DNA from: Candidatus Tectimicrobiota bacterium
Lineage (GTDB): Bacteria > JACPUC01
Assembly: GCA_016192455.1 (NCBI GenBank)
Contig: JACPUC010000002.1
Span: 1-64,000, forward strand
DNA length: 64,000 nt
Direction of reading: 5' to 3'
Under the pieces are notes generated by a model. It saw nothing but the letters and a program-made list of their open reading frames with translations. It ran no database searches and was not told where the DNA came from. Within the stretch, counting starts at the first letter, position 1. The number at the start of each line of letters is the position of its first letter. Position numbers and translations under genes: made by a program. Of the stretch, positions 10,726 through 64,000 are shown one piece after another.

Positions 10726-11634
10726 ATGCAGCTCGGCATGGTGGGTCTGGGCAGGATGGGTGGGAACATGGCGCGCCGCCTCCTCCAGGCGGGGCACGAA
10801 GTTGCCGTCTCAGACCGTTCCAGCGAAGCGGTGCAGGCCATGGCGGCGGCCGGCGCGCAAGGGACCAGCAGCCTCGCGGAGCTGACGGAGAGGCTGACGC
10901 CACCGCGCGCCGTCTGGGTGATGGTGCCCTCCGGCGCCCCCACCGAGGAGACGATCCGCGCCCTGCGCGAGGTGCTGGCGGCGGGCGACATCATCATTGA
11001 CGGCGGCAACACCTACTACAAGGATGATCTGCGCCGGGCGGAGGAGCTGCGCGGGGCGGAGCTGCACTACGTGGATGTCGGCACGAGCGGCGGCATCTGG
11101 GGCCTCGAGGCGGGGTACTGCTTGATGGTCGGCGGCGAGCGGCGGATCGTCGCGCACCTGGAGCCGATCTTCCACGCCCTGGCGCCGGAGAACGGCTACC
11201 TCTACACCGGGCCGTGCGGCTCCGGCCACTTCACGAAAATGATCCACAACGGCATCGAGTATGCCATGATGCAGGCCTACGGGGAGGGGTTCGAGCTGCT
11301 GCGGCAGGCGCCGTTCGATCTCGATCTGCATGCCATCGCCGCGGTGTGGAACCATGGCAGCGTGGTGCGCTCATGGTTGCTGGAGCTGCTCGAGGCGGCC
11401 TTCAAGCGCGATCCCGACCTGGGGGAGCTGAGTGGCTATGTGGAGGACTCGGGAGAAGGCCGCTGGACCATTCTCCAGGCGATCGAGGAAGAGGTGCCCG
11501 CGCCCGGCCTGGCTCTCGCCCTGTTCACGCGTTTCCGCTCGCGCCAGGATCGCTCCTTTGCCGAGCGCGTGCTGGCGGCGCTGCGGCGCGAGTTCGGCGG
11601 GCACGCGGTGCGCCGCGCCGCGCCGCCGTCGTAG
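10726..11634 (+). CDS. gnd: 6-phosphogluconate dehydrogenase, decarboxylating (short form)
   Basis: Oxidises 6-phosphogluconate to ribulose 5-phosphate and CO2 with reduction of NAD(P)+. The 302-residue length is that of the short (GndA-like, usually NAD-dependent) group, not the roughly 470-residue form. It shows the Rossmann motif GLGRMGGNMARRLL, the substrate motif DVGTSGGIWGLEAGYCLMVGG and the catalytic Lys segment GHFTKMIHNGIEY. GGGAGGGG lies just before the ATG. It sits between the Pgi fusion and zwf, consistent with an oxidative pentose phosphate operon. Confidence 0.93.
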   Translation: MQLGMVGLGRMGGNMARRLLQAGHEVAVSDRSSEAVQAMAAAGAQGTSSLAELTERLTPPRAVWVMVPSGAPTEETIRALREVLAAGDIIIDGGNTYYKDDLRRAEELRGAELHYVDVGTSGGIWGLEAGYCLMVGGERRIVAHLEPIFHALAPENGYLYTGPCGSGHFTKMIHNGIEYAMMQAYGEGFELLRQAPFDLDLHAIAAVWNHGSVVRSWLLELLEAAFKRDPDLGELSGYVEDSGEGRWTILQAIEEEVPAPGLALALFTRFRSRQDRSFAERVLAALRREFGGHAVRRAAPPS

Positions 11635-11781
11635 CCGCAGGGGTGGGGAGGCGGCACGGGCCGCCCGTCGCCCTGAGGAGAGGCGTGGCCTGCGCCGGGG
11701 CGCGACCTTCCTCCGCACCCCCTCCTGCGCCACCTTCTAGGCTGAAGGCGGGAAGGCCGGCGGAAGATCGTGAGGGACGCC

Positions 11782-13317
11782 ATGCCCGAGCCAATCGCAC
11801 CCTTCATCACCCTTCCGTCCCTTCCTGATGATGTCCCCGGCGCGCCCTGCGCCATGGTCGTCTTCGGCGCCTCGGGCGACCTCACGAAGCGCAAGCTGGT
11901 GCCCGCCCTCTTCAACCTCGCGTGCGAGGGGCTGTTGCCGGATGGGTTCGCCCTCCTCGGCTTCGCGCGCACGCCGTTGAACGAGGAAAAGTTCCGCGGC
12001 GCCATGACGGAGAGCATCAAGCGCTACGGCACGCGGCAGTTCAATGCCGCGGTGTGGGAGAAGTTCGTCCAGCGCCTCTTCTACCAGCAGCACGAGTACG
12101 ACGACCCTGCCTCCTACACCGCCCTGAAAGCGCAGCTCCAGAAGCTGGACCGCGACTGCGGCACCCAGGGGAACCACATCTTCTACCTCTCGACGCCTCC
12201 CGGCTTCTTCCCCACCATCATCGAGAACCTGGGGGCCGCCGGGCTGAACCTCGAGGAGCGGGGCAAGTTCAGCCGCGTGGTCATCGAGAAGCCGTTCGGC
12301 CGCGACCTCGCCAGCGCCGTCAAGCTCAACGAGATCGTCTACCAGCAGTTCCAGGAACACCAGGTGTTCCGCATCGACCACTACCTCGGCAAAGAGACGG
12401 TGCAGAACATCTTGGTGTTCCGCTTCGCCAACGGCATCTTCGAGCCGATCTGGAACCGGCGCTACGTCGATCACGTGCAGATCACCGTGGCGGAAACCAT
12501 CGGCATTGAAGGCCGCGGCAGCTACTACGAGACGGCGGGCGTGCTGCGCGACATGATCCAGAACCACATCTTCCACCTCTTGGCGTACATCGCCATGGAG
12601 CCGCCGATCGACATCAACGCCACCAAGGTGCGCGACGAGGAGGTGAAACTCCTCGACGCCGTGCAGCGCATGCGCCCGGAGCAGGTGCCGGTGCGCGCCG
12701 TGCGCGGCCAGTACGGCGAGGCCACCGTCGACGACCGCTGGCTGCCCTCCTACCGTGAGGAGAAAGGAGTAGCCGCGGATTCGCAGGTGGAGACCTTCGC
12801 GGCCCTGAAGCTCTACATTGACAACTGGCGCTGGGCGGGCGTGCCCTTCTACCTGCGCTCCGGGAAATGCCTCCCCGAGCGCCGGGCGGAGATCGCCATC
12901 CAGTTCAACCGCGCCCCGCTGCAGCTCTTCCGGCACCAAGAGGTGAAGCAGCTCTCCCCCAACCTCCTGGAGATGCGGCTGCAGCCCGACGAGGGTATCT
13001 CCCTGCGCTTCGAGACCAAGAAGCCGGGGACGAAAATCCGCATGCAGACGGTGGACATGCAGTTCGACTACACGCGCAGCTTTGACACCAACTATTCAAC
13101 GGGCTACGAGACGCTCCTGCATGACTGCATGACCGGAGACTCCACCCTCTTCGCGCGGGCAGACATGGTCGAGACCGCCTGGAAGGTGATCCAGCCGATC
13201 CAGGAAGTGTGGCAGAACACCGCCGCCGAGTTCCCCAACTATCCGGGGGGGACCTGGGGTCCTATCGAAGCGAACCACCTGCTCCAGCGGGACGGACGCG
13301 GCTGGCTGCAGGGGTGA
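11782..13317 (+). CDS. zwf: Glucose-6-phosphate 1-dehydrogenase
   Basis: First oxidative step of the pentose phosphate pathway: glucose 6-phosphate to 6-phosphogluconolactone with NADP+ reduction. The 511-residue product has the coenzyme motif VFGASGDLTKRKL, the EKPFGRDL segment and the substrate-binding signature RIDHYLGKETVQN with the catalytic His further on. The ATG at 11782 has GAGGG 5 bases upstream; an in-frame GTG at 11770 is the alternative start. No 6-phosphogluconolactonase gene is visible next to it, although zwf and pgl are often paired. Confidence 0.95.
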   Translation: MPEPIAPFITLPSLPDDVPGAPCAMVVFGASGDLTKRKLVPALFNLACEGLLPDGFALLGFARTPLNEEKFRGAMTESIKRYGTRQFNAAVWEKFVQRLFYQQHEYDDPASYTALKAQLQKLDRDCGTQGNHIFYLSTPPGFFPTIIENLGAAGLNLEERGKFSRVVIEKPFGRDLASAVKLNEIVYQQFQEHQVFRIDHYLGKETVQNILVFRFANGIFEPIWNRRYVDHVQITVAETIGIEGRGSYYETAGVLRDMIQNHIFHLLAYIAMEPPIDINATKVRDEEVKLLDAVQRMRPEQVPVRAVRGQYGEATVDDRWLPSYREEKGVAADSQVETFAALKLYIDNWRWAGVPFYLRSGKCLPERRAEIAIQFNRAPLQLFRHQEVKQLSPNLLEMRLQPDEGISLRFETKKPGTKIRMQTVDMQFDYTRSFDTNYSTGYETLLHDCMTGDSTLFARADMVETAWKVIQPIQEVWQNTAAEFPNYPGGTWGPIEANHLLQRDGRGWLQG

Positions 13318-40735: not shown

Positions 40736-41200
40736 TTAGAGCTTCTTGATCTCCGCGATCAGCTCGTTGTTCTCGGGGATTCCCTTCTCCCAAACCTTGC
40801 TGAAGCGGATCGTGCCCGCCTTGTCGATAAGGAAGCAGGCTCGCTTCGAGAAGCCCTTCTCGTTGAAGACGCCGAAGGTCTGCGCGGCCTTGCCGTGCGG
40901 GTAGAAGTCCGACAGCATGGGGAAGGAGATGCCTCCCAGCTTCTCGGCGAACACCTTGTTGCTGAAGACGCTGTCACAACTGATACTCACGACCTGAGTA
41001 TTGAGCTCTTCGAAGCGCTTGCGGTCGGCCTCGAAGTTCTTCAGCTCATTCTCTCACCCAGGTGTGAAGGCGAGGGGGTAGAAAGCGACGAGGACATTCT
41101 TCTTGCCGCGGTACTCAGCCAGCGAGTGGTTCTTGCCGAACTCGATCGCAAGCTCGACCGAGGGGGCTTTGGTACCGGGCTGTAAGGGTTGATCAGCCAT
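40736..41200 (-). CDS. Selenocysteine peroxiredoxin (in-frame TGA at 41054-41056)
   Basis: Thiol/selenol peroxidase of the AhpC/TSA-BCP-AhpE type, 154 residues. The frame from the ATG at 41200 (AAGGAGG 7 bases upstream) gives PGTKAPSVELAIEFG, then FYPLAFTPG, an in-frame TGA at codon 49, then ENELKNFEADR. The TGA falls exactly on the peroxidatic cysteine of the FTPxC motif, so it is read as Sec49. Downstream, SISCDSVFSNKVFAEKLGG, FPMLSDFYPHG and ACFLIDKAGTIRF are normal, and the Cys of SISCDS or ACFLID may resolve. A 9-bp hairpin follows the TGA. Cytoplasmic peroxide detoxification is the expected role. A naive call yields only residues after GTG 40990. Confidence 0.9.
41008..41036 (-). promoter_or_regulatory. 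Candidate bacterial SECIS hairpin of the selenoperoxiredoxin
   Basis: On the minus strand, starting 17 bases after the TGA, CTTCGAGGC pairs with GCTTCGAAG (nine pairs, one G-U) around an 11-base loop beginning CG. Its distance from the UGA and a G among the first two loop bases fit the bacterial SECIS pattern recognised by SelB. Confidence 0.6.
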
Positions 41201-51915: not shown

Positions 51916-54216
51916 CTAGTCGGACGCCCGCCCCTCCGCCACGAGGCGGGCCACCTTGGGGGGATGCAGGGGGATCTCGCGGATGCGAACGCCGAAGGGG
52001 CCCAGGGCGTCCTCGACGGCCGCGGCAAGCACTCCCAGCGCGGCGATCGTCCCCGCCTCGCCGGCGCCCTTGGTGCCGAGGGGGTTCCAGGGTGACGGCG
52101 TCTCCTGGTGCAGGGTCTCGACGCGGGGCACCTCCAGCGCCGCCGGCATGGGGTAGTCCATGAACGAGCCGACCAGCGCCTGGCCGTTTTCGTCGAAGTA
52201 CATCTCCTCGAAGAGCGCCTCGCCGATGCCGTGCGCCACGCCGCCCTGCACCTGCCCCTCGACGATGAGCGGGTTGAGCACCGTGCCGCAGTCGTGCACG
52301 GTGGCGTAGCGCAGCACCCGCACGTGCCCCGTCTGCGGGTCCACCTCGACGATCGCGGCGGTCGAGCTGCTTGCCCAGGACTCGGCGGCCCCCTCGAAGC
52401 GCTCCGTTGCCTCGAGGCGACGATCAGCCCGGCGGGCGATGGCGGCGAGGTCTTGCAGGCTGACGCCGCGGGCGCTGCTGCCGCGCACCGAGACGCCGCC
52501 GCCACCCACTTCGAGGTCCGCCGCGTCCACCTCCAGGTGCTCCGCCGCCAGCTCCTTGAGGCGCCGCAGGAGCGTCTGGGCGGCCATGAAGGTGGCGTTG
52601 GCGCCAAGGATGGCGACGCGGCTGCCGAAGGTGCCGACGCCGTCCGGCACCCCATCGGTGTCCCCCAGACCGACGCGGATGCCTTCGGGAGGCACGCCGA
52701 AGACATCCGCGACCACCTGCGCCAAGCTGGTGCCGATCCCCTGCCCCTGGGAGGGTGAGCCGCAGTGCAGACGCAGGCCGCCGGCGTCGTCGAGCTCGAC
52801 GCGGGAGGTCTCCGACAGGCCGGCGCCCGTCGGCTCGACGCACATCGTCATGCCGAGGCCGCGGTAAACGGCGCCCTGCCGCAGGCGCGCCTGCTCGGCG
52901 CGGAACGCCGGCACGTCGAGGTGGCGGCGCAGCGTGTCGAGGAGCGCCGGGTAGTTGCCGCTGTCGTAGCGGATGGGGGCGCCGGCGACCGTCTTCAGGC
53001 CGGTGTCGTAGGGGAACTCGTGGGGTTGGATAAGGTTGCGCGCGCGCACCTCGAGCGGGTCGAGACCGAGCTCGGCGGCCGCGAAGTCGAGGAGGCGCTC
53101 GATGACGAAGTTCGCCTGCGGACGGCCCGCGCCGCGCACCGGACAGAGCGGCACCCGCGTGGTGTAGACGTGCGTGCCCTGAATGTCATAGGCCGGGATG
53201 TGGTAGCTGTTGAGGAGCGACATGGCGACGCGGTTCGGCGTCACCACGCTCATGGCGGCATAGGCCCCGGCTTCACTGAGGTAGTGGTCGCGCAAGCCGA
53301 GGAGAGTGCCGTCGCGGCGCACCGCAAGCTCCGCGTCGTGAAGCTGCAAGGTCTCCTGGAAGGTGCCGACGAAGTGCTCGTGGCGGTCCTCGACGAACTT
53401 CACGGCTCGCCGCAGGCGACGCGCCAGGTAGGGGACAAGGACATCCTCGGGGTAGAATCCCCCCTTGACGCCGAAGCCGCCCCCCACATCCGGGGCGATG
53501 ACGTGGATCTGCTCGACAGGCAGATCGAGCATGACGGCGAGCTTGGCGCGAAAACCGTGGGGCATCTGGGCGGAGGGCCAGACGGTGAGGCGCTGGCTGT
53601 CGGCATCGAAGGAGGCGACGAGGCCGCGCGTCTCCATCGGCATGCCGGAGGAGCACTTGATCCTGAAACGCTCGCGGATGACGAGGTCCGCCGCCGCGGC
53701 CGCCGCCGCGAAGTCCCCCCGCCGCTGCACCACGCGGGTGCAGAGGTTGGAGGGGTGGCGCTCATGGATGCGCGGCGTTGTCGGATCGAGCGCCTGCTCG
53801 AGGTCGATGACCGCCGGGAGCGGCTCGTACTCCACAACGATCTGCTCGACCGCGTCCTCGGCGAGGTAGCGCGACTCCGCCGCCACGCAGGCGATCGGTT
53901 CGCCGACGTAGCGCACCTTCTCTCGCGCCAGCGGCAGCAAGTTGGCGGGCTGCTCGACCGGGAAAGGAGTGAACATCGGCAGCTCGCGCGTGATCTCGGG
54001 GATGTCCTTGGCGCAGAGCGCCGCCGCCACGCCGGTGACGCGCCGCGCCGCCGCGACATCGACGCGCCGCAAGAGGGCGTGCGCGTGCGTGCTGCGCAGC
54101 ACCGCCAGGTGCAGCATGCCGTCGAAGGACAGGTCGGCCGCGTAGCAGCCCTGACCGGTGAGGAGCCGCGGGTCTTCCAGGCGTTTCAGGGCGGCGCCGA
54201 CGTAGCGCTGGGTCAT
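51916..54216 (-). CDS. Molybdenum hydroxylase large subunit (xanthine dehydrogenase/CoxL family)
   Basis: Molybdopterin-binding catalytic subunit, 766 residues. It starts YVGAALKRLEDPRLLTGQGCYAADL, then has PDVGGGFGVKGGFYPEDVLVPYLA, PVRGAGRPQANFVIERLLD, GQGIGTSLAQVVADVFGV and the catalytic Glu segment GTKGAGEAGTI. The active loop reads VRGAGR, as in form-II CoxL-like enzymes, without the Cys of true CO dehydrogenase (CSFR), so CO is not the substrate. No FAD or 2Fe-2S subunit gene is adjacent. AAAGGAG lies 7 bases before the ATG. It is divergent from the GrdE-like gene. Confidence 0.9.
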   Translation of the reverse strand: MTQRYVGAALKRLEDPRLLTGQGCYAADLSFDGMLHLAVLRSTHAHALLRRVDVAAARRVTGVAAALCAKDIPEITRELPMFTPFPVEQPANLLPLAREKVRYVGEPIACVAAESRYLAEDAVEQIVVEYEPLPAVIDLEQALDPTTPRIHERHPSNLCTRVVQRRGDFAAAAAAADLVIRERFRIKCSSGMPMETRGLVASFDADSQRLTVWPSAQMPHGFRAKLAVMLDLPVEQIHVIAPDVGGGFGVKGGFYPEDVLVPYLARRLRRAVKFVEDRHEHFVGTFQETLQLHDAELAVRRDGTLLGLRDHYLSEAGAYAAMSVVTPNRVAMSLLNSYHIPAYDIQGTHVYTTRVPLCPVRGAGRPQANFVIERLLDFAAAELGLDPLEVRARNLIQPHEFPYDTGLKTVAGAPIRYDSGNYPALLDTLRRHLDVPAFRAEQARLRQGAVYRGLGMTMCVEPTGAGLSETSRVELDDAGGLRLHCGSPSQGQGIGTSLAQVVADVFGVPPEGIRVGLGDTDGVPDGVGTFGSRVAILGANATFMAAQTLLRRLKELAAEHLEVDAADLEVGGGGVSVRGSSARGVSLQDLAAIARRADRRLEATERFEGAAESWASSSTAAIVEVDPQTGHVRVLRYATVHDCGTVLNPLIVEGQVQGGVAHGIGEALFEEMYFDENGQALVGSFMDYPMPAALEVPRVETLHQETPSPWNPLGTKGAGEAGTIAALGVLAAAVEDALGPFGVRIREIPLHPPKVARLVAEGRASD

Positions 54217-54621
54217 GCAGGTCTCCTTTCCGCGGTGCGTCGCGTGGCGGAGGAGCAGGCGCCGGCTGAGCCCCACGACGGGCTGCGTCGCCTCTCCCGT
54301 TGCTCGCGGGCGCTGCCGAAGGGGCGCGAGACCCCGCGGCAGCGTAGAGACTTGGCTTCCCCGCCGCGGCAGGGTGAGTATAGGGTTCGCGCCAGGGTCA
54401 ATCAACCGCGCGCCTCTGCGCCGCGCCGGGGAGGGGGCGGGAAAGGCGGCCCCGCGGGGGGTGAGGGGGTGATTGACAGCCTCGACGTGCGCGCCGTAAG
54501 ATTGGGCAACTCAACGAGCTGCGGTTCCCGCCGAGCCCGCTGCCGGATGGCCCGTCCCGCCTCCGGGTGACGCGAAGGTTCGCTGCGCCGGCGGTCGCGC
54601 CACCTGCGGGGGTGCCCCTCC
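54217..54621. other. Divergent intergenic region with promoter
   Basis: About 400 bases between the molybdenum hydroxylase and the selenoprotein cluster. It contains the promoter at 54473; I see no gene. Confidence 0.4.
54473..54502 (+). promoter_or_regulatory. Promoter of the GrdE/GrdB-like selenoprotein operon
   Basis: Perfect TTGACA, an 18-base spacer and TAAGAT (4 of 6), 120 bases before the GrdE-like ATG. It is the only clear promoter before the genes to 60102. Confidence 0.6.
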
Positions 54622-55920
54622 ATGAGACTTGAGCTGCTCGTCCACCGCATCCGCGATCTGCGCGCCGGTGCGCCGACGCGCCTGGGGGGGGGCGTGCTCA
54701 CGGTTGACACGGCGGCCTTGGGCGAGGCGCTGCGTGCGGCGGCGGGCATCGAGGTGCGCGTCGAGCTGGCGCGACCAGGCGAGTCGGTGCGCCTGAGCAA
54801 CGTGCTCGACCTGATCGAGCCGCGCTGCAAGGATGACGCCGGCGGCGCCTACTTCGCCGGCTTCCATGCCCCGCTCCAGGTGGCGGGGAGCGGCGGCACG
54901 CACGTGCTGGAGGGGCTTGCCGTCGTCGAGACGGGGGCGCTGCGCGGCCTCATCGGCGGCGTCATCGACCTCTCCGGGGCTGCGGCCAGGCTCACGCCGT
55001 TCGGCAGCCTGCATCACGTTGTCCTGGAGACGGCCCCCAGGGCGGGGATGGACAAGACCTCCTACGCCGCCGCCATCCGCCGCGCCGGCCTCGAAGCGGC
55101 TTGCCTTCTGGCCCGCGCCTGCCGCAGCGCCGCGCCGGACGAGCGGCGGACCTACGATCTCTCCCTCACCGCCGAGGGGTCCGCATCCTCGCTCCCCGCC
55201 GCCGGGGCCGACGGGGCGCCACGCCTGCCGCGCATCGCGTACGTGTGCATGCTCCATGCCCTCGGCGACACGCGGGAATCGTACCTCTACGGCCAGCGGG
55301 TGCGCGACTTCACCCCGACCCTGCTGCATCCCAACGAGGTCCTTGATGGGGCCGTGGTCTCGCACCACTACGATATCTCCCCCGGCATGAAGAACACCAC
55401 TTACACCTTCCAGAACCATCCGGTGATCCGCGACCTCTATGCCCGGCATGGCCGCGACCTCATCTTCGCCGGCGTGGTGGCGGCCAATCAGCCGGTGCGC
55501 CTGGAGGACAAGGAGTGTTCCGCCTTCATGACGGCGCGCCTCTCGGCCCACCTGCTGCGCGCCGACGGCGTCATCATCACCAAGGAGGGGGCAGGCGCGG
55601 GCGACTACGACCTCATGCGGCAGTGCCAGGCGCACGAGGCGATGGGGGTGAGGACGGTCCTCATTGATAACGAGCAGATCAACGCCAGCGGCATCGGCGA
55701 AATGCCGCTCATCGACGTGACCCCGTACGCCGAGGCGATGGTCAGCACCGGCAACGTCGAGGAGCTCGTCCACCTGCCGGAGGTTGCGCGGGTGCTCGGG
55801 GGCGACACGATGGTGAACGTGCCGGGCTCGCTGCGCGGGCCGCTACGCCTGGAGTCGATCGTCATCCCCGGCGCCAACAGCACGCTCGGCCTTACGTCCA
55901 TGGCGACCGCCCACGTCTAG
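54622..55920 (+). CDS. GrdE-like reductase component lacking the pyruvoyl-precursor Cys
   Basis: Homologue of the GrdE/PrdA proprotein of glycine, sarcosine, betaine and proline reductases, 432 residues. Family blocks are LRLSNVLDLIEPRCKDD near residue 60, LPRIAYVCMLHALGDTRESYLYGQRV, PTLLHPNEVLDGAVVSHHYD, NTTYTFQNHPVIRDLYARHGRDLIFAGVV and DGVIITKEGAGAGDYDL. In fermenters the precursor is cleaved at a Cys just before K-N-T-T-Y, giving a pyruvoyl group. Here residues 251-261 read DISPGMKNTTY, with Gly255 at that site, so cleavage and pyruvoyl chemistry are not expected. It starts the selenoprotein operon, 135 bases before the GrdB-like gene. Confidence 0.85.
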   Translation: MRLELLVHRIRDLRAGAPTRLGGGVLTVDTAALGEALRAAAGIEVRVELARPGESVRLSNVLDLIEPRCKDDAGGAYFAGFHAPLQVAGSGGTHVLEGLAVVETGALRGLIGGVIDLSGAAARLTPFGSLHHVVLETAPRAGMDKTSYAAAIRRAGLEAACLLARACRSAAPDERRTYDLSLTAEGSASSLPAAGADGAPRLPRIAYVCMLHALGDTRESYLYGQRVRDFTPTLLHPNEVLDGAVVSHHYDISPGMKNTTYTFQNHPVIRDLYARHGRDLIFAGVVAANQPVRLEDKECSAFMTARLSAHLLRADGVIITKEGAGAGDYDLMRQCQAHEAMGVRTVLIDNEQINASGIGEMPLIDVTPYAEAMVSTGNVEELVHLPEVARVLGGDTMVNVPGSLRGPLRLESIVIPGANSTLGLTSMATAHV

Positions 55921-56055
55921 GCCGCGGAGCGGCCCGACGCAGCCCGGCGGCCGGGGGGGGCCGCGGTGGGCGCGATGGATGGCCGCAACCTCCTCCGCCA
56001 TGCGTCGTGTTTCTCCTCCGCGTGCGAGGGGAGCGAGTGCTCTGAAGGGGCTGGT

Positions 56056-57402
56056 ATGGTCGAGCCATTGCGTGTCGTGCACTACCTCAATCAGTTCTTC
56101 GGGCAGATCGGCGGCGAGGAGAAGGCGGACGCAGCGCCGCGCCTGCACCAGGGCCCGCTCGGACCGGGGCTGCTCCTCCAGGAACGGCTTGGAGAGCGGG
56201 GCAGGGTGGTCGCCACCGTCATCTGCGGCGACAATTACGCGGCGGAGCGTCAGGAGACCGCCGGCGAGGTGCTGGCCCTGCTGCGGGGGCTGGAGTTCGA
56301 CGCCTTTGTGGCGGGTCCCGCGTTCAACGCCGGGCGGTACGGCCTGGCCTGCGGCAGCCTCTGCGCGGCGGTGCGGGAGGCGCGCGGGGTGCCCTGCGTG
56401 ACCGGCATGTTTGCCGAGAACCCAGCGGTGGAGCAGTTCCGCCGCCGCGCCTACATCGTGCGCAGCGGCTCCACGGCGAGGGAGATGGCGCAGGCCATGG
56501 AGGCGGTGACGGCGCTGCTCCTGAAGCTCGCCGCGGCGCCGGACGAGACCGGGGTGCAGGCTGGCGGCCTCGCCGTCTCGCCGGAAGCTGATGGCTACTT
56601 TCCGCAGGGGCGCACGGTGAACGTCGTCGGCGATCGCCTTGCCGCCGCGCGCGCCGTGGAGATGCTCCTCGCCAGAGTGCAGGGGCGGCCGTTCCACACC
56701 GAGATCCCCCTGCCCGCGCCGGGGCGCGTGCCGCCGGCGCCGGCGCTGCGGGAACTGCGCGGCGCCTGTCTGGCGCTGGTGACGGAGGGAGGGCTGGTGC
56801 CGGCGGGCAACCCCGATGGCCTCGTGGGGGCGCGGGCGAGCAGCTATCGCGCTTACAGCATCGCGGGGCTCGGGTCGCTCCGGGCCGGGGCCTACGAGTC
56901 GGTGCACCGCGGCTTCGACACCTCGGCGGTGAACGCCGATCCGAACCGCATCGTGCCGCTCGACGCGGCGCGCCAGCTCGAAGCCGAGGGGGTGTTCGGC
57001 AAGCTCCACGAGACCTACTATGTCACCTCCGGCTGCGCCACCTGGATCGAGAGCAGTCAGGCGATGGCCGCCGGCATTGCCGCGGAGCTGCGCCGAAACG
57101 GCGTGGACGGAGTCATCCTCACCGCGACGTGAGGCACCGGGGTGCGCTGCGGGGCAGCGATGGCACGTGAGCTGGAGCGGCAGGGCATTCCCACGGCGCT
57201 CGTCGCCACCCTCGTCTCCACGGCGCTGACGGTGGGGGCGAACCGCATCGTTGTGGGGACCGGCATCCAGCATCCGCTCGGCAACCCGAAGCTCAGCGCC
57301 GAGGAGGAGCGCCGCCAGCGCCGCAGGCTCCTGGAGTGCGCGCTCCAGAGCCTGACGACGGACCTCCAGGAACAACGGGTCTTCGAGGCCGCGGCGGCCT
57401 GA
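56056..57402 (+). CDS. GrdB-like selenoprotein (in-frame TGA at 57130-57132)
   Basis: Homologue of the substrate-specific selenoprotein B of glycine/sarcosine/betaine reductase. From the ATG at 56056 (AAGGGG 5 bases upstream) the protein begins RVVHYLNQFFGQIGGEEKA and contains VVATVICGDNY. At codon 359 a TGA is followed in the same frame by GTGVRCGAAMARELERQGIP, then ALTVGANRIVVGTGIQHPLGNPKLS and a normal C-terminus. GrdB has STUGTCTRCGATM here, so the TGA is Sec359 and the total is 448 residues (about 436 in the family, Sec near 350). The second Cys of the UGTCTRC motif is Gly; RCG is kept. A SECIS-like hairpin follows. In glycine reductase the selenol forms a link with the substrate; the substrate here is unknown. 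Confidence 0.93.
57145..57159 (+). promoter_or_regulatory. SECIS-like hairpin of the GrdB-like gene
   Basis: Twelve bases after the TGA, CGCTGC and its perfect complement GCAGCG flank the loop GGG. The loop begins 18 bases after the UGA with G at its first positions, as expected for bacterial SECIS elements read by SelB. Confidence 0.65.
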
Positions 57403-57560
57403 GGGGCGGCCGCCCGGCGAAGGCCGGGGTTCGCGGAGTTGCCCCGCGCGGCGCGGCCGGATGCGCTCGGGCGCTGGGGGGCTGGAGCACGTCACGAGAA
57501 CCCTGCGTGAGGCGGCCTCCCCTCCTCGCGCCGTGCAAGGGCAGAAGGAAGCCAGGCGCA

Positions 57561-59132
57561 ATGACTCTCGGAGACCTCCTCCTGGCGAGCGCCCGCAACG
57601 TGCCGCAGAAGACCGCCCTGGTCATGGCAGGGCGCGCGCTCACCTTTGCAAGCTGGAACGAGCGCGCCAACCGCGTGGCCAATGCCCTCCTCGGCCTTGG
57701 GCTGGGGGCGGGCGACCGGGTGTCGATCTACCTGTCGAACTGCCTCGAGTGGGCCGAGGCATACTTCGGCGTGACCAAGAGCGGCGGCATCGTGGCGCCT
57801 GTCAACGCCTGGTTCCGAGAGAAGGAGCTGGGCGTGGTGCTGCGCCATGCGGAGCCCCGCTTTGTCATCACGGAGCGCGCCCTTCTGGGGTATGTGCGCA
57901 AGGTGCGGGAGAACGTCGCCTCCATAGCGCAGGCGGTCATCGTCGACGAGCCGCGCGCCGCCCCACTCACGCGCGGCGAGCTCGACTACCGCGGCCTCCT
58001 CGAGGCCGCCTCGGCCGCCGAGCCCGGGGTGCCGCTCAGCGAGCAGGACGTGCAGGCCATCGTCTACACCTCCGGCACCACGGGGGCGCCGAAGGGTACC
58101 GTCCTGACGCACCTGAACCAGCTCCTAGCCGGCTTCTACATCCTCATGCACGAGTGGGGCCTGCGGCACGAGGACGTCTTCCTGGCCGCCGCCCCCTTCT
58201 GCTTCCGCACCGGCCTGCACCGCCTGCACCTCTGCGCCGGCCTGGGGGGGACGACGCACTACCTCGAGCGCTTCGAAGCGCGGCAGATGCTGAAGGTTGC
58301 CGCCGAGGAGCGGGTGACGGCGCTGGGCGTGGTGCCGACCATGCTCCACAAGCTCCTCGATGTGCTCGAGTCGGAGCCGTACGACCTGCAGGCGCTGCGC
58401 GTCGTCTTCAGCACCTCGGCGCCGCTGCCGCAGGCCGACAAGGAACGCCTGCTGACGCTCTTCCCGCACGTCGAGCTGAACGAGTACTACGCCGCCACCG
58501 AAGGAGGCATCATCAGCAACCTGAAGCCGTGCGATCAACTGCGCAAGCTCAACTGCGTGGGCAAACCGGCCCTGGGCATGCAGGTGCGGCTGCTGGACGA
58601 CATGGGGCGCGACGCGCCGCAGGGCGAGACGGGGGAGATCGCCGTCAGCAGCGGGCCGGGAGGCGGTCCCCTGGTCTTCCGGGAGTACTTCCGCAATCCG
58701 CAGGCCACCGCCGCGGCAATGCGGGGCGACTGGTATTTGTCGGGCGATCTCGGCCGCTTCGACGAGGACGGCTACCTCTATGTCATGGGGCGGAAGAAGG
58801 ACATGATCATCAGCGGCGGGGTGAACATCTTCCCGCGCGACATCGAGGAGCATCTCTGCACGCATCCGAGCGTGCGCGAGGCCGCCGTGGTCGGCGTCCC
58901 CGATGCGCAGTGGGGCGAGATCGTCACGGCGGTGGTGGCCTTGCAGTCCGGGGTGCAGGTGGGCGAGGAGGACCTCATCGCGTACTGCAAGGATGCTCTG
59001 GCCAGCTACAAGAAACCGCGCCGGGTGCTCTTCTGCGAGGAGCTGCCGAAGAACGCCAACGGCAAGATCATGAAGGACGAGCTGCGACAGTCAATCGTCG
59101 GTGCTGCGCGGGCGGAACGCAGGGGCGGGTAG
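57561..59132 (+). CDS. AMP-dependent acyl-CoA synthetase/ligase
   Basis: Activates a carboxylic acid with ATP to an acyl-AMP and then the CoA thioester. The 523-residue protein has the P-loop AIVYTSGTTGAPKGTVLTH, NEYYAATEGG, YLSGDLGRFDEDGYLYVMGRKKDMIISGGVNIFP and the catalytic Lys in PKNANGKIMKDELRQ. The match is to the medium/long-chain or aryl-CoA ligase group; the acid is unknown. It follows the GrdB-like gene by 158 bases and may deliver or trap the product of that reductase. Confidence 0.93.
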   Translation: MTLGDLLLASARNVPQKTALVMAGRALTFASWNERANRVANALLGLGLGAGDRVSIYLSNCLEWAEAYFGVTKSGGIVAPVNAWFREKELGVVLRHAEPRFVITERALLGYVRKVRENVASIAQAVIVDEPRAAPLTRGELDYRGLLEAASAAEPGVPLSEQDVQAIVYTSGTTGAPKGTVLTHLNQLLAGFYILMHEWGLRHEDVFLAAAPFCFRTGLHRLHLCAGLGGTTHYLERFEARQMLKVAAEERVTALGVVPTMLHKLLDVLESEPYDLQALRVVFSTSAPLPQADKERLLTLFPHVELNEYYAATEGGIISNLKPCDQLRKLNCVGKPALGMQVRLLDDMGRDAPQGETGEIAVSSGPGGGPLVFREYFRNPQATAAAMRGDWYLSGDLGRFDEDGYLYVMGRKKDMIISGGVNIFPRDIEEHLCTHPSVREAAVVGVPDAQWGEIVTAVVALQSGVQVGEEDLIAYCKDALASYKKPRRVLFCEELPKNANGKIMKDELRQSIVGAARAERRGG

Positions 59133-59274
59133 GGGGTGCGCTGGAATCCCCGCCGCGCCGCGTCCCCCATGCGCGCCTCTCTCGCAGCGCTGCCTGGGAG
59201 CCGCGCCGGACCTGCAAACTCAGTGGTGGGAACGAAGGGCGCACGTCTGCCTCCGCCCCCATGGAGGTCTGTTC

Positions 59275-59490
59275 ATGAACGATGTAGAACGCGACTATCT
59301 CCGCTATTCCCTTGACCAGACTATCGAGACGCTCCAGGACATTCGAGAGCGCCTCATCACCGAGGATTACAATGAGGACTACGACATCACCGGGATGGTG
59401 GCGACCGTGAACAGTTTCCGCTGGGAGGTGGAGGCCTTCCTCGAAGAATTCAGCGCCAGCGCCGACGATGCGCAGGATGAAGCTGATTGA
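59275..59490 (+). CDS. Small acidic protein of unknown function
   Basis: A 71-residue, acidic, probably all-helical protein (MNDVERDYLRYSLDQTIETL; ending ASADDAQDEAD). No known domain is recognised. GGAGG lies 7 bases before the ATG, and codon use matches its neighbours. It lies between the acyl-CoA ligase and the SRPBCC gene in the same direction and may be a small partner of one of them. Confidence 0.6.
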   Translation: MNDVERDYLRYSLDQTIETLQDIRERLITEDYNEDYDITGMVATVNSFRWEVEAFLEEFSASADDAQDEAD

Positions 59491-59667
59491 GCGTGGGAGG
59501 GGCGCCCTGACGTGGGGGGGGCCCGGCGTCGCGAGCGGCGTGAAGTCCGCGCGGCGGGCCGATGCGCCGCCGGGGATGCCGCCGCCGCGTGATTGTTGGT
59601 GGTGGGGGTGCGGCGAGGAGGATGTTGCCGGTGTTGCCGACGAACGTTCCAGAGGGGGAGAGCGCAG

Positions 59668-60102
59668 ATGGGTGAGATCGAAGTGCGGCAACGCATCACG
59701 GCGCCGGCGCTGGACGTCTTCAACTTCATCGCTGATGTCACCACTCATCCGCGCTACGCGGAGTTCTGCAAGCGCATCGAGATCACCTCGGCGCAGCGCC
59801 ACGGCGTCGGCGTCACCTTCACCCAGCTTACCGACCACGGCGACGGGGGGCTCTACGAGGTGCGCTCCCGCATCGCCCGCTGGGAGCCTGGCACGCATGT
59901 GAGCTGGGTGAACACGGATGCCCACGGCACGCCGCAGGTGGAGGTGATCTACGATCTCGTCCAGCACGGCGGCGAGGTCGAGGTGATCCACCGCGTCATC
60001 GGACCGATGCTCGACGACGAGGCCCTTCGTCAACGCTCGTACGACGACAATGTGGTTGAGCTCGCCAATTTGAAGCGGCTCCTGGAGCGGGGTGATCGCT
60101 AG
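59668..60102 (+). CDS. SRPBCC/START-like lipid-binding protein
   Basis: A 144-residue helix-grip fold protein of the polyketide cyclase/CoQ10-binding (RatA/COQ10-like) type. It begins IEVRQRITAPALDVFNFIADVTTHPRYAEFCKRIEIT and continues with the typical alternating strands and the C-terminal helix. Such proteins bind a hydrophobic ligand or help a cyclase or aromatase. GGGGGAG precedes the ATG at 59668. It ends the first selenoprotein operon. Confidence 0.8.
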   Translation: MGEIEVRQRITAPALDVFNFIADVTTHPRYAEFCKRIEITSAQRHGVGVTFTQLTDHGDGGLYEVRSRIARWEPGTHVSWVNTDAHGTPQVEVIYDLVQHGGEVEVIHRVIGPMLDDEALRQRSYDDNVVELANLKRLLERGDR

Positions 60103-60439
60103 GCGCGTCCTGCCTCCTTCATGGCGCATCGGACCCCTTGCCCCACCATGGTGCGCCCGACGGCGCGAGGGGAGAGAGGTTTAGCCCTCACGCTGTTCTA
60201 ATCATCACGGCGTGGTCCGACGGCCTTGACGTAGGAAGCTTTGCGAGAGTACTATCGAAGCCTGCCCCGGTCGTGCGCACGGGTACTGCCAGTTCTTCCC
60301 CTGCAGTGCCGTGGATGTGGAAACGCCGCCCCTGAAGATTGGTACGACGAGGTCTGCCGCCGTCGGCCCGCAGCGCCGCGAAGCAGCATTCCCGACTCGT
60401 TGCGCCACGGTTGCACCGTTGCCTCGGAAGGTTGGAAGG
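60103..60439. other. Intergenic region with promoter of the second selenoprotein unit
   Basis: 337 bases; apart from the promoter at 60226 I see no gene or terminator. The frame of the next gene is open upstream to 60311 but reads as low-quality sequence. Confidence 0.4.
60226..60255 (+). promoter_or_regulatory. Promoter of the UGSC selenoprotein unit
   Basis: TTGACG (5 of 6), an 18-base spacer and TACTAT (4 of 6). It lies about 185 bases before the first gene of the unit. Confidence 0.55.
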
Positions 60440-61462
60440 ATGAGCCAAGCCAGGGGTGTGGCCGCAATCACCGTTGCTTCCCTCGAGGAGGCGCTTGAGA
60501 CCTGTTACGCGCGGGGTTGGACTGATGGTCTGCCCGTGATCCCGCCGACGGAGGGCCGCGTGCAGGGTATGCTTGCGGCGGCGGGGCGCCGGGGCGGCGA
60601 GCTCGTGGCGCACGTCAGCACGCGGCGCTGCAGCATCACCGCGCAGCAAATCGCCGTCAACGCGGTGATGGCGGGCTGCCTGCCGGAGTACTACCCCGTG
60701 GTCGAGACGGCGGTGCGGGCCATCGCCCAGCCGCAGTTTGGCGTGCATGGACCGATCACCAGCACCGCCGGCGCGGCCATCCTGGTGATCGTGCATGGTC
60801 CCATGGCGCGCCGGCTCGGCGTCCGCAGCGGCGGCAACCTCCTGGGGCCCGGGGCGCGCGCCAACGCCACCATCGGCCGGGCCCTGCGCCTGGTGATCCT
60901 CAATGTCCTTGGGGCGCGGGGCGAGCTCGACCGCTCCACGTTCGGCCAGCCGGGGAAGTACACCTCGTGCATTGCCGAGCACGATTCCTCCGGCCCCTGG
61001 CCACCCCTGCACGCCGCCCGCGGGCTGGACCCTGGGTGCAGCGCCGTGACCGTCTTCGCCTGCGAGGCGCAGCACCAGGTGAACGACCACCTGAGCGCCA
61101 CGCCGCAGGGCATCCTCGACACTGTGGCGCGGGTCATGGCCTTGCGCGGGCAGTGTGAGTACCTCCTCGTCTTCGGCGCCGAGCACCTGGCCACGCTGCG
61201 GGCGGCCGGCTGGTCGCGTCAGGATGTGGTGGACTACCTCTGGCGGCAGGCCCGGGCGCCCCTGGCCTACCTGAAGACGCTCATGAAGGTGCCCGGCTCC
61301 ATCGAGCCGGGCGATGGCGAGCAGCTCGTGCGGGTGGTGGAAGAGCCCGGGGACATCATGGTGATGCACGCGGGCGGCGAGGCGGGGCGCTTCTCACTCT
61401 GCTTCTATGGCTGGGCGACGCGCCGGAACTCCCGCGCCGTCACCCTCCCACTCGAGGGGTAA
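60440..61462 (+). CDS. Conserved protein of unknown function paired with the UGSC selenoprotein
   Basis: A 340-residue soluble protein without a domain I can name. Visible blocks are CYARGWTDGLPVIPPTEGRV, the Cys-containing STRRCSITAQQIAVNAVMAGCLPEYYPVVE, HGPITSTAGAAILVIVHGP, SGGNLLGPGARANATIGRALRLVILN, and FGQPGKYTSCIAEHDSSGPWPPLH. Several Cys (in RRCSI, MAGCLP, YTSCIAE) could take part in redox or metal chemistry. The start has GGAAGG 8 bases upstream. It ends 7 bases before the selenoprotein ATG, so the two are tightly coupled and probably form one enzyme. My impression that such proteins recur beside or fused to UGSC proteins is from memory. Confidence 0.75.
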   Translation: MSQARGVAAITVASLEEALETCYARGWTDGLPVIPPTEGRVQGMLAAAGRRGGELVAHVSTRRCSITAQQIAVNAVMAGCLPEYYPVVETAVRAIAQPQFGVHGPITSTAGAAILVIVHGPMARRLGVRSGGNLLGPGARANATIGRALRLVILNVLGARGELDRSTFGQPGKYTSCIAEHDSSGPWPPLHAARGLDPGCSAVTVFACEAQHQVNDHLSATPQGILDTVARVMALRGQCEYLLVFGAEHLATLRAAGWSRQDVVDYLWRQARAPLAYLKTLMKVPGSIEPGDGEQLVRVVEEPGDIMVMHAGGEAGRFSLCFYGWATRRNSRAVTLPLEG

Positions 61463-61469
61463 TCTGCAC

Positions 61470-62069
61470 ATGGTCCAGCCCTCTGCCGTGGAAGGCGCCT
61501 TTGCGGCGCCGCTCCGCCTCCTGGCGCCGGACGACGTCGGCGAAGCGGAAGCGCTGCCGCTTGCGGCGCGACCGGCGTCGTTCGAGGGGAGGGTGCTTGG
61601 CATCCTCGACAACCGCAAGCACAACTCCGAGCGCCTGCTCCTCGAAGTGGGAGAGCTGCTGCGCCGGCAGTACCGCCTGCGCGATGTCCGCCTGCACAAG
61701 AAGCCGAGCTTCAACGTTGAGGTGAGCCCGGAGCTGCTCCAGGCCATGGTGCAGGAGTGCGACCTGGTGGTCACCGGCATCGGCGACTGAGGGTCGTGCA
61801 GTTCGAGCAGTGTGCTCGACGCCATCCTCTTCGAGCAGGCCGGGGTGCCAAGCGCGGCGATCGTCACCGACGCCTTCGTCCGCACCGGGGCCGCCATTGC
61901 GGCGGCGTGGGGCATGCCCGATTACGGCTTCGCCGTGACCCATCATCCGATCGTGATTCAATCGACTGCGGAACTGGCGCGCTGGGCAACCGAGGTGGTG
62001 CCGCAGGTGCGGGCGATTCTCTCCGGGGAGGCCGCGTCGGGCGGGCGCGAAGGCAACCGAAGGGAGTAG
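61470..62069 (+). CDS. UGSC-motif selenoprotein (in-frame TGA at 61788-61790)
   Basis: A 199-residue protein in which the TGA at codon 107 lies within one continuous frame: VSPELLQAMVQECDLVVTGIGD, Sec107, then GSCSSSVLDAILFEQAGVPSAAIVTDAF. This gives the U-G-S-C motif of the UGSC family of (seleno)proteins, in which Cys or Sec starts the motif. The N-terminal part has ILDNRKHNSERLL and KKPSFNVEVS. Sec and Cys110 form a UxxC redox pair, so a thiol/selenol reductase role is likely; the substrate is unknown. A perfect hairpin follows the TGA. The ATG overlaps no other gene and is 7 bases after the partner gene. Confidence 0.92.
61803..61819 (+). promoter_or_regulatory. SECIS-like hairpin of the UGSC gene
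   Basis: Twelve bases after the TGA, TCGAGCA and its perfect complement TGCTCGA flank the loop GTG. The loop starts 19 bases after the UGA. The geometry is almost the same as in the GrdB-like gene. Confidence 0.7.
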
Positions 62070-62120
62070 GCCGGAGCCGCGGCCGGCCTTGCCAGGCAGG
62101 AGCAGGTCAGGGGAGGGAGC

Positions 62121-63893
62121 ATGCTGCCGAAAGGTGTCGTCGATCAGGAGCTGCGCGTCGATCTCCTCGTCCTCGGCTCTGAGGGGGCCGGCGCCAAGGC
62201 TGCCATTGAAGCGTATGACCTTGGCGTCACCAACAGTGTCATGGTGACGAAGGGGTTCTTCGGCAAGAGCGGCGTGACACTGATGGCGGGCCGTGCCGTG
62301 CAGGCCGCCCTTGGCCATATGGACCCCCATGACAACCCCGAGGTGCACCTGAAAGACACCGTGGAGGTCGGAGGGTACCTGACCAACCAGAAGCTCTCCG
62401 AGCGGCTCGTCACCCTGGCGCTCACCGAGATTCCGAAGCTGGAGACCTGGGGCGCCCGCTTCCAGAAAGAGGGAGACAAGTTCTTCCAGATCCAGTTGCC
62501 CGGCGCCTCCTATCCGCGCTCCTGCACCTCCGCCGTGCAGCAGGGCGGCCTCGAGTGGCGGCGCGCTTACAAGGCGCAGGCGCGCAAACGGCGCCTGCGG
62601 GTGCTGGAGAACGTCTTCGTCACCTCCCTGATGACGAAGGGGGGCCGCGTCTGCGGCGCCACCGCGGTCAACCTCGCCGACGGCCAGTTCTACCTCCTGC
62701 GCGCCAAGGCCGTGGTGCTGGCCTGCGGCGGCGCGACGCAGCTCTTCCCCCATACCGACGCCGCGCTGGAGGCCACCGGCGACGGCATGGCGCTCGCCTA
62801 CCGCGCCGGCTGCGACCTGGTGGACATGGAGTTCCACATGTTCTTCCCGTTCGGCGTGCTCTGGCCGACGGGCTTCCAGGGCCAAATCTGGCCGGCGGAC
62901 TTCCGCTACCGGCTGCGCGCCAAGTTCTACAACAACCTCGGCGAGGAATTCCTCCTGCGCTACCAGCCGGAGTGGGGCAACTGGGGGCTGCGCGACCCGA
63001 CCTCGCAGGCGATCTACCTCGAGAACCTCTACGGGCGCGGCTCGCCGCACGGTGGCGCCTACCTGTCGATCAACCACCTGCCGCGGAACATGATCGACAA
63101 CTTCATCGCCAAGTTCCACCGCAACCGCAAGAAGTGGTACTGGACGAAGCTGCAGCAGCTTGGCGTGGACCTGCGCACTGATGCCATCGAGGTGGGGCCG
63201 GTCTCCCACTACACCATGGGCGGTGTGCGCGTGGATGAGTGCTGCCGCACCACGCTGCAAGGCCTCTTCGCTGCCGGCGAGGTGGCGGGAGGGATGGACG
63301 GTGCCGAGCGCCTCGACGGCGGCCCGGCGATCACCTGGACCCAGACCATGGGACTAATCTGCGCCCAGGAGAGTGCCGCCCACCTGCAAGGCGCCGAGCT
63401 GCCGGAGATTGATGCGCAGCAGGTGCGGGAGGCCCGCGAGCGGGCCTACCAGCCGCTGGCGCGCTCCGAAGGTCCGCGAGGTTACGAGGCGAAGCGGCTC
63501 GTCAAACAGCTCATGGGCGCCGCCTGCACCTTCGTGCGCGACGAGGCGCGCCTGCGGGAGGGCTTGGCGCGGCTGGCGCGCCTGCGGGAAGAGGTGCTGC
63601 CGCGGCTCTCCGCCAATCCGACGCGCCGCTACAACCGGGACTGGGTGCACGCCCTTGAGGCGCAGAACCTTGCCGATGTTGCCGAGCTGGTGCTGCATGC
63701 GGCGCTCACCCGGCGCGAGAGCCGCAAGGCGCATTTCCGCTCGGACTTCCCGAAGGAAGACCCGGCGTGGATCAAGAACGTCATCCTGCGGCGGGGGGGA
63801 GATGGGCGGCTGGAGGTCCAGATCGTCGATCCGGTGATGACGAAAGTGTTTCCCCCGGTGACCACTCCGTCCGGCCGCGATGGTTCAGCATGA
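62121..63893 (+). CDS. Fumarate reductase/succinate dehydrogenase-like flavoprotein
   Basis: FAD-binding subunit of the fumarate-reductase/aspartate-oxidase/AprA superfamily, 590 residues. An N-terminal nucleotide-binding segment (VDLLVLGSEGAGAKAAIEAYDLG), AVVLACGGATQLFPHT, SHYTMGGVRVDE and GLFAAGEVAGGMDGAERLDGG are diagnostic. The usual covalent-FAD His near SGHSxxA is replaced (GKSGVTLMAG), so FAD is probably non-covalent. A GGGAGGG site precedes the ATG. It is followed by an iron-sulfur subunit and probably passes electrons to or from the UGSC pair. The substrate is not assigned. Confidence 0.9.
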   Translation: MLPKGVVDQELRVDLLVLGSEGAGAKAAIEAYDLGVTNSVMVTKGFFGKSGVTLMAGRAVQAALGHMDPHDNPEVHLKDTVEVGGYLTNQKLSERLVTLALTEIPKLETWGARFQKEGDKFFQIQLPGASYPRSCTSAVQQGGLEWRRAYKAQARKRRLRVLENVFVTSLMTKGGRVCGATAVNLADGQFYLLRAKAVVLACGGATQLFPHTDAALEATGDGMALAYRAGCDLVDMEFHMFFPFGVLWPTGFQGQIWPADFRYRLRAKFYNNLGEEFLLRYQPEWGNWGLRDPTSQAIYLENLYGRGSPHGGAYLSINHLPRNMIDNFIAKFHRNRKKWYWTKLQQLGVDLRTDAIEVGPVSHYTMGGVRVDECCRTTLQGLFAAGEVAGGMDGAERLDGGPAITWTQTMGLICAQESAAHLQGAELPEIDAQQVREARERAYQPLARSEGPRGYEAKRLVKQLMGAACTFVRDEARLREGLARLARLREEVLPRLSANPTRRYNRDWVHALEAQNLADVAELVLHAALTRRESRKAHFRSDFPKEDPAWIKNVILRRGGDGRLEVQIVDPVMTKVFPPVTTPSGRDGSA

Positions 63894-63914
63894 GAACCGC
63901 CAGAGGGCGATGAG

Positions 63915-64000
63915 ATGATGGGGAAGATGGGGAAAGAATCAGCTCGCAGCTCCAGTTCTGAAGGCACGGTCGAAGTGTTTCGTTTCGATCCCAAGGTCGA
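63915..64000 (+). CDS. Start of an iron-sulfur (SdhB/FrdB-like) subunit, cut by the window end
   Basis: The first 28 codons are visible. After a Ser-rich start the sequence EGTVEVFRFDPKV matches the first strand of the 2Fe-2S domain of succinate dehydrogenase/fumarate reductase iron-sulfur subunits. It begins 21 bases after the flavoprotein stop in the same frame. The rest lies outside the window. Confidence 0.65.
   Translation, partial: MMGKMGKESARSSSSEGTVEVFRFDPKV

Follow-up and report, generated by a model that had tools for sequence, protein, structure and literature searches.

Does a run of nine co-directional genes that includes two selenoprotein genes encode one reductive system or two? 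The question is raised by the end of a 64,000-nucleotide stretch (the window) taken from contig 5 of a Candidatus Tectimicrobiota bacterium genome, a 4.46 Mb assembly of 31 contigs that is 88% complete. The genes lie on the forward strand from 54622 to past the window end, and the original prediction had grouped all nine into one glycine-reductase-derived system. Our analysis favours, with somewhat better than even confidence, two adjacent and separately promoted units. Unit 1 would be a pyruvoyl-independent protein B (GrdE plus GrdB) that feeds a shared GrdA/GrdC, and unit 2 an independent selenoenzyme made up of UGSC and a protein of 340 residues, called here U340. We hold with high confidence the gene identities, the selenocysteine (Sec) coding, the missing cysteine of GrdE, the presence of GrdA and GrdC in the genome and the pairing of UGSC with U340.

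All the predicted genes were present and in the same direction. Unit 1 (54473-60102) contains the genes for a GrdE-like subunit lacking the pyruvoyl cysteine (54622-55920), a GrdB-like selenoprotein (56056-57402), an AMP-forming acyl-CoA ligase assigned at family level only (57561-59132; PF00501/PF13193), a 71-residue protein of no family (59275-59490) and an SRPBCC (polyketide cyclase-like) protein (59668-60102; PF10604, 27.4 bits, exactly at the cut-off). Unit 2 (60226-64298) contains the genes for U340 (60440-61462), the UGSC selenoprotein (61470-62069), a flavoprotein resembling fumarate reductase/SdhA (FrdA-like; 62121-63893) and a 2Fe-2S protein (63915-64000, on to about 64298 beyond the window). 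Gaps are 136-178 bp within the first five genes, 338 bp between the SRPBCC and U340 genes, and 8, 52 and 22 bp within the last four. The two promoters that had been predicted correspond to sigma-70-like sites before each block (TTGACA-18-TAAGAT at 54473-54502 and TTGACG-18-TACTAT at 60226-60255, both on the forward strand), and the region has four such sites where 0.4 would be expected. Taken together, the gaps and the promoter-like site before each block suggest two transcription units.

Gene neighbourhoods elsewhere were then compared at 47 other GrdEB loci from named genomes (up to 10 kb on each side, less on short contigs) and at 24 UGSC loci, and the occurrence of GrdE, GrdA, UGSC and U340 was surveyed in 145 genomes. 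None of the 47 GrdEB loci carried UGSC, U340, FrdA, FrdB, the SRPBCC protein or the 71-residue protein, and UGSC with U340 occurred without any GrdE in 8 of the 10 genomes that have the pair. The nearest GrdE and UGSC genes are 82 kb apart in one closed Entotheonella genome (G094) and 236 kb apart in another (G146). Within the window genome itself, the other two UGSC loci (L011, L012) had no GrdEB, and the other two GrdEB loci had no UGSC. These distributions, the separate promoter-like sites and the location of GrdA and GrdC elsewhere in the genome speak against one integrated system, in which the ligase would form a CoA ester for two-step cleavage or reduction by GrdEB and UGSC/U340, with electrons from the FrdA/2Fe-2S pair. 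Such a system would account for the single strand, the short gaps and the adjacency of two Sec proteins of one superfamily; random placement of three GrdEB and three UGSC loci has a 2.6% chance of giving the observed proximity (338 bp, one strand). We consider it improbable and hold with moderate confidence that there are two units rather than one, so that the nine-gene system of the original prediction was not upheld. In view of the 2.6% chance, a local functional link between the units is possible, but it is not our default. UGSC was enriched among GrdE-bearing genomes, as expected of Sec-rich genomes.

Both in-frame UGA codons (57130-57132 in grdB and 61788-61790 in the UGSC gene) very probably encode Sec, because the genome has tRNA-Sec (75 bits, over the Rfam threshold) and SelB (366 bits, over the NCBIfam cut-off), and hairpins stand at a fixed distance in grdB and UGSC genes. 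All 51 grdB genes have a hairpin with a stem of at least 5 bp after the UGA, and its loop begins at +19 in 48 of them; 500 draws of synonymous reshuffling gave a mean of 21 and a maximum of 32 such genes. The same holds for all 23 UGSC genes, 21 of which have the loop start at +20 (null mean 9.7, maximum 17). GrdA genes did not show this pattern by the same criterion (7 of 20, null 6.4). In the window, the hairpins resembling a selenocysteine insertion sequence (SECIS) are CGCTGC-GGG-GCAGCG (57145-57159; loop start 19 nt behind the grdB UGA) and TCGAGCA-GTG-TGCTCGA (61803-61819; loop start 20 nt behind the UGSC UGA). UGA was present at the motif in all 24 UGSC copies, and family-level similarity runs on through the UGA in both the GrdB and the UGSC frames. 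Were the codons true stops followed by decayed sequence, neither the decoding genes and position-fixed hairpins nor the intact downstream frames of all relatives would be expected; nothing was found in favour of this idea, to which we give almost no credence. A third selenoprotein in the window is a peroxiredoxin (40736-41200, reverse strand) with an in-frame UGA at the TPGU position and no strong hairpin within 42 nt behind it. On contig 25 (L008), a PrdB-like selenoprotein (CCFPLUPAC; 8599-9486, reverse strand) and a rhodanese-like selenoprotein (11378-12202, forward strand) lie less than 3 kb apart, with SECIS-like hairpins in both.

What kind of protein B does unit 1 encode? Both subunits are members of the protein B families at the Pfam level (PF09338, 365 bits; PF07355, 422 bits; gathering thresholds about 22), and Sec aligned at the conserved position. 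At the pyruvoyl site, canonical GrdE rows of the alignment read GNCVSACDKN and the window GrdE reads SHHYDISPGMKN, in agreement with the predicted absence of the cysteine. This cysteine is missing from all three GrdE proteins of the window genome and likewise from the three that Entotheonella G094 encodes. The Cys-bearing rows formed one group in a tree of 53 GrdE sequences, of which we used the coarse grouping alone as several branches are long. Within a Cys-less group of ten, with members from Syntrophaceae, Geobacteraceae, Myxococcota, Planctomycetota and Bacillota, the window GrdE grouped with its paralogue from contig 30. The window GrdB (motif ATUGTGVRC) has lost the first cysteine of UxxCxxC, changing UxxC to UxxG. 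Among GrdB proteins, 30 of 31 with a Cys- or betaine-type GrdE partner kept UxxC, but only 3 of 20 with a partner of the other Cys-less type did (p about 1e-9; neither the counts nor this value are corrected for relatedness). Of 15 genomes with Cys-less GrdE, 3 had a GrdD scoring over its cut-off, as against 9 of 11 with the Cys- or betaine type, counts that include many incomplete metagenome-assembled genomes and one genome, among the 11, whose GrdD is cut at contig ends. Thus, the Cys-less GrdE is accompanied by loss of the UxxC cysteine and usually by absence of GrdD, an association that is new here. Since a protein without a pyruvoyl group would not form the Schiff base, we conclude with moderate confidence that unit 1 does not act on a primary or secondary amine in that way. 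The predicted reuse of a glycine-reductase-derived module therefore holds for unit 1, as a derived module without the pyruvoyl group, and not for all nine genes as one system.

Models of the characterised enzymes did not place the pair in any named class. Glycine reductase proper (GrdBE) is not indicated, as the pyruvoyl cysteine and UxxCxxC are absent and the published GrdB motif is not matched; the window GrdB fails both the glycine and the sarcosine motifs of PMC9751293, which is weak evidence alone, as these motifs also miss some Cys-type rows. Scores with the sarcosine reductase GrdFG models (NF040793/NF040794) were 274 against a cut-off of 780 and 449 against 800 bits, and the GrdF motif was not matched. 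No Tyr-type GrdI of betaine reductase was seen (SGNYVWPAFKVPTY), and the betaine GrdH model gave 433 against 775 bits. PrdA and PrdB models gave 28 and 70 bits against cut-offs of 700 and 300. Unit 1 could still be a conventional protein B of glycine or sarcosine reductase if another carbonyl, for example on a modified residue near Sec, replaced the pyruvoyl group, as has been speculated for FarB (PMC10838667). The best NCBIfam model for the window GrdE is indeed sarcosine GrdG, but its 274 bits are far under the cut-off, the motifs fail with the reservation given, and no radical-SAM maturase or gene for a formylglycine route was called adjacent to unit 1; we find this alternative unlikely. 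The pair could also be a FarEB-type reductive dehalogenase of haloacetate, with which it has both motif losses in common and whose FarE model (NF053623) does match the window GrdE, at 194 bits. The cut-off is 675, the haloacid transporter and radical-SAM genes of farACEB are lacking, and by score the window GrdE is nearer to sarcosine GrdG than to FarE, which makes this identity less probable again.

A protein B acts with GrdA and GrdC, and the original prediction had seen none of GrdA, GrdC or GrdD. This is true of the window and, for GrdD, of the genome as assembled, in which NF040747 had no match; GrdA (NF040748, 198 bits, cut-off 130) and GrdC (NF040746, 634 bits, cut-off 450) are encoded side by side on contig 1. 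The complete canonical set elsewhere that would have undermined the prediction is thus present in part. The single GrdA carries Sec in the motif CFVU. GrdA and GrdE occurred in exactly the same 4 of the 145 genomes. Entotheonella has a Cys-less GrdE in one run, GrdB-GrdE-GrdC-GrdA. Desulfofundulus has the order DASS anion symporter-GrdE-GrdB-GrdC-thioredoxin-GrdA and then an oxidoreductase that is thioredoxin reductase-like judging by the start of its sequence only. Such operons of pyruvoyl-less GrdE with GrdC and GrdA, found also in D. piger, Geobacteraceae and at other loci, indicate that this GrdE type goes with GrdA/GrdC. The three different GrdEB pairs and one GrdA of the window genome fit an arrangement of many protein B complexes and one shared A/C system, which has been described for Synergistota (PMC10838667).

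Unit 1 may then work as a substrate-specific protein B of glycine reductase type without a pyruvoyl group. Sec of GrdB would attack the carbon next to a carboxylate and displace a leaving group for which no Schiff base is required. The selenoether so formed would be passed to the Sec of GrdA, and GrdC would convert the GrdA-bound intermediate to an acyl thioester; hand-over to GrdA and the thioester on GrdC are established glycine reductase chemistry. As no GrdD was found, release of the acyl group is probably in a form other than acyl phosphate; our confidence in this fate, as in any substrate, is low. The ligase, the 71-residue protein and the SRPBCC protein would be locus-specific accessories. 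The ligase was close to GrdEB at no other locus compared, and the 71-residue protein had no relative in any of them.

Companions differ among the three GrdEB loci of the genome, as expected of substrate-specific protein B sets: ligase, 71-residue protein and SRPBCC in the window, a caprolactamase-like pair on contig 30 and an isochorismatase-like hydrolase on contig 31. On contig 30 (L007 8609-15191), the caprolactamase/hydantoinase-like pair is followed directly by a pyruvoyl-less GrdE and GrdB, and may point to an N-acyl or lactam-derived substrate. The hydrolase on contig 31 (L006 7837-11309; biuret amidohydrolase/RutB-like) lies directly 5' of GrdE-GrdB. A DASS sodium-coupled anion symporter adjoins pyruvoyl-less GrdEB in Desulfofundulus and a groundwater deltaproteobacterium (L042 2847-4362, L044 3731-5233), a hint of anionic substrates in these two relatives. 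Divergent from unit 1 in the window is a molybdenum hydroxylase-like large-subunit gene (51916-54228, reverse strand; XDH/CO-dehydrogenase type by sequence), with a promoter-like site at 54405.

We turn to unit 2, whose UGSC protein is a full member of its family (PF24696, 183 against 25 bits; NF041046, 133 against 125 bits), with the UGSC motif and its UGA in the context GIGDUGSC. UGSC and U340 were found in the same 10 of the 145 genomes, and one further genome had a UGSC fragment alone at a contig edge. U340 lay within 6 kb of UGSC at 23 of the 24 loci, was adjacent at about 20 and was fused to it in one continuous frame at 6. From this linkage and fusion we read U340 as an obligate partner of UGSC. 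A fusion of UGSC with a domain named Unknown_1 was reported in 2008 (PMC2398784), and Unknown_1 is likely to be U340. No match to U340 was obtained in Pfam, NCBIfam or PDB, and no relatives were found in viral contigs; its best-conserved parts are WTDGLPVxPPT, NAVMAGC, GPGxRANATxGR and CIAENExxSPW. Profile comparison excluded its identity with GrdE or GrdB, and a fold predicted from the single sequence (predicted local distance difference test, pLDDT, 33) was not used. No other neighbour was widespread at UGSC loci (short-chain dehydrogenase/reductase in 4 genomes, enoyl-CoA hydratase in 3). At one locus (L017 903-4434), three tandem U340 paralogues stand without an adjacent UGSC, the nearest being 5.4 kb off on the other strand. 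Several UbiD-type decarboxylase genes, recognised by sequence, lie around the UGSC-U340 loci on contigs 7 and 9 (L011, L012) and downstream of the window (L005 8590-9996).

The two units meet in the Sec domain. Pairwise HHalign of UGSC with the C-terminal Sec domain of GrdB gave a probability of 96.4% (E 1e-9) over 90 columns, with Sec on Sec, and unrelated pairs from the same alignments gave 0.1-1.2%. We conclude with moderate confidence that UGSC and the Sec domain of GrdB are homologous, a relationship that is new here. UGSC-U340 thus probably belongs, as a distant member, to the glycine/proline reductase superfamily, and a thioredoxin-like protein is the less likely reading. The authors of the 2008 Global Ocean Sampling paper (PMC2398784) proposed a thioredoxin-fold thiol oxidoreductase, and UGSC does carry a UxxC motif. 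No thioredoxin match was obtained for UGSC in Pfam, NCBIfam or PDB profile searches, and together with the 90-column match to GrdB this leaves us doubtful of the thioredoxin fold. In a structural model of GrdB (pLDDT 87; predicted template modelling score, pTM, 0.56), Sec lies at a helix start, after a strand, in the C-terminal domain. Foldseek matches to this model were weak, the best being the periplasmic-binding-protein-like LsrB (probability 0.95 but TM score about 0.2), and we claim no fold. PDB profile searches with U340, UGSC and GrdB gave nothing significant; the best match for UGSC was a designed protein (E 0.014), which was dismissed.

Unit 2 would accordingly be a two-part selenoenzyme in its own right, with UGSC carrying the Sec domain and U340 as its partner, probably for substrate binding, although our confidence in this role is low. 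The FrdA-like flavoprotein (PF00890, PF02910; PDB 7d6v, E 8e-71) and the 2Fe-2S protein could be its local redox partner, and the pair is a plausible electron donor, again with low confidence. The predicted Fe-S partner of the flavoprotein is present, but as a lone Fer2_3 domain (PF13085, 127 residues) rather than a whole FrdB; neither the three clusters of FrdB nor a membrane anchor was seen, the next gene downstream encoding a solute-binding protein. Genes for this flavoprotein pair occurred at no other UGSC locus. Their proposed service to GrdEB was not borne out, as nothing was found to tie them to it and neither FrdA nor FrdB occurred at the other GrdEB loci.

Apart from the close spacing of the units, several points weigh against the reading of two units with a shared GrdA/GrdC. 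The genes for GrdA and GrdC are not linked to unit 1, and we infer their use by it; the alignments behind the UGSC-GrdB match are shallow and the comparison was pairwise; and the window genome is the only one of its phylum among those searched, with no close relative for comparison. A more far-reaching proposal, which we offer as tentative, is that UGSC-U340 forms an unrecognised third class of the glycine/proline reductase superfamily, multicopy in respiratory bacteria and cleaving reductively without GrdA/GrdC, alongside a pyruvoyl-less, GrdD-less GrdEB-A-C system that releases a product other than acyl phosphate. If true, bacteria would use Sec-based reductive cleavage in respiration as well as in fermentation. 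Few selenoprotein families are commoner in surface waters than UGSC (PMC2398784), which has been without a function since 2008; its placement in the GrdB superfamily and a named constant partner would give it a testable chemistry. The correlated losses of the GrdE pyruvoyl cysteine, the GrdB UxxC cysteine and often GrdD, seen in environmental bacteria that include sulfate reducers and Entotheonella, point to a broad glycine-reductase-like class acting on substrates other than amines; fluoroacetate reductase would be one of its members.

How do the units compare with known systems? A pyruvoyl-less GrdE is not new in itself, since the cysteines are also absent from FarE and betaine GrdI, and CxxC from FarB (PMC10838667). 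Like unit 1, FarE/FarB of Cloacibacillus are GrdE/GrdB homologues with lost cysteines that are predicted to feed a shared GrdA/GrdC; the window differs in its sub-threshold FarE score, in lacking the FarA antiporter and FarC radical-SAM genes, in its other accessories and in that no GrdD was found. With the glycine, sarcosine and betaine protein B complexes (GrdBE, GrdFG, GrdHI), unit 1 shares PF09338 and PF07355, the Sec position and the presence of GrdA/GrdC in the genome, but it lacks the pyruvoyl cysteine, has UxxG, scores below all equivalog cut-offs, and comes from a genome with unlinked GrdA/GrdC and no GrdD found. The UGSC of unit 2 matches its family (NF041046, PF24696) in full and in the motif with UGA, and fusion to a second domain is already on record for the family, whereas the literature examined mentions neither a homology with the Sec domain of GrdB nor U340 as an obligate partner. 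D-proline reductase PrdAB and unit 1 have in common the superfamily that joins GrdE with PrdA and GrdB with PrdB, but the window pair is GrdB-length and only weakly PrdA/PrdB-like.

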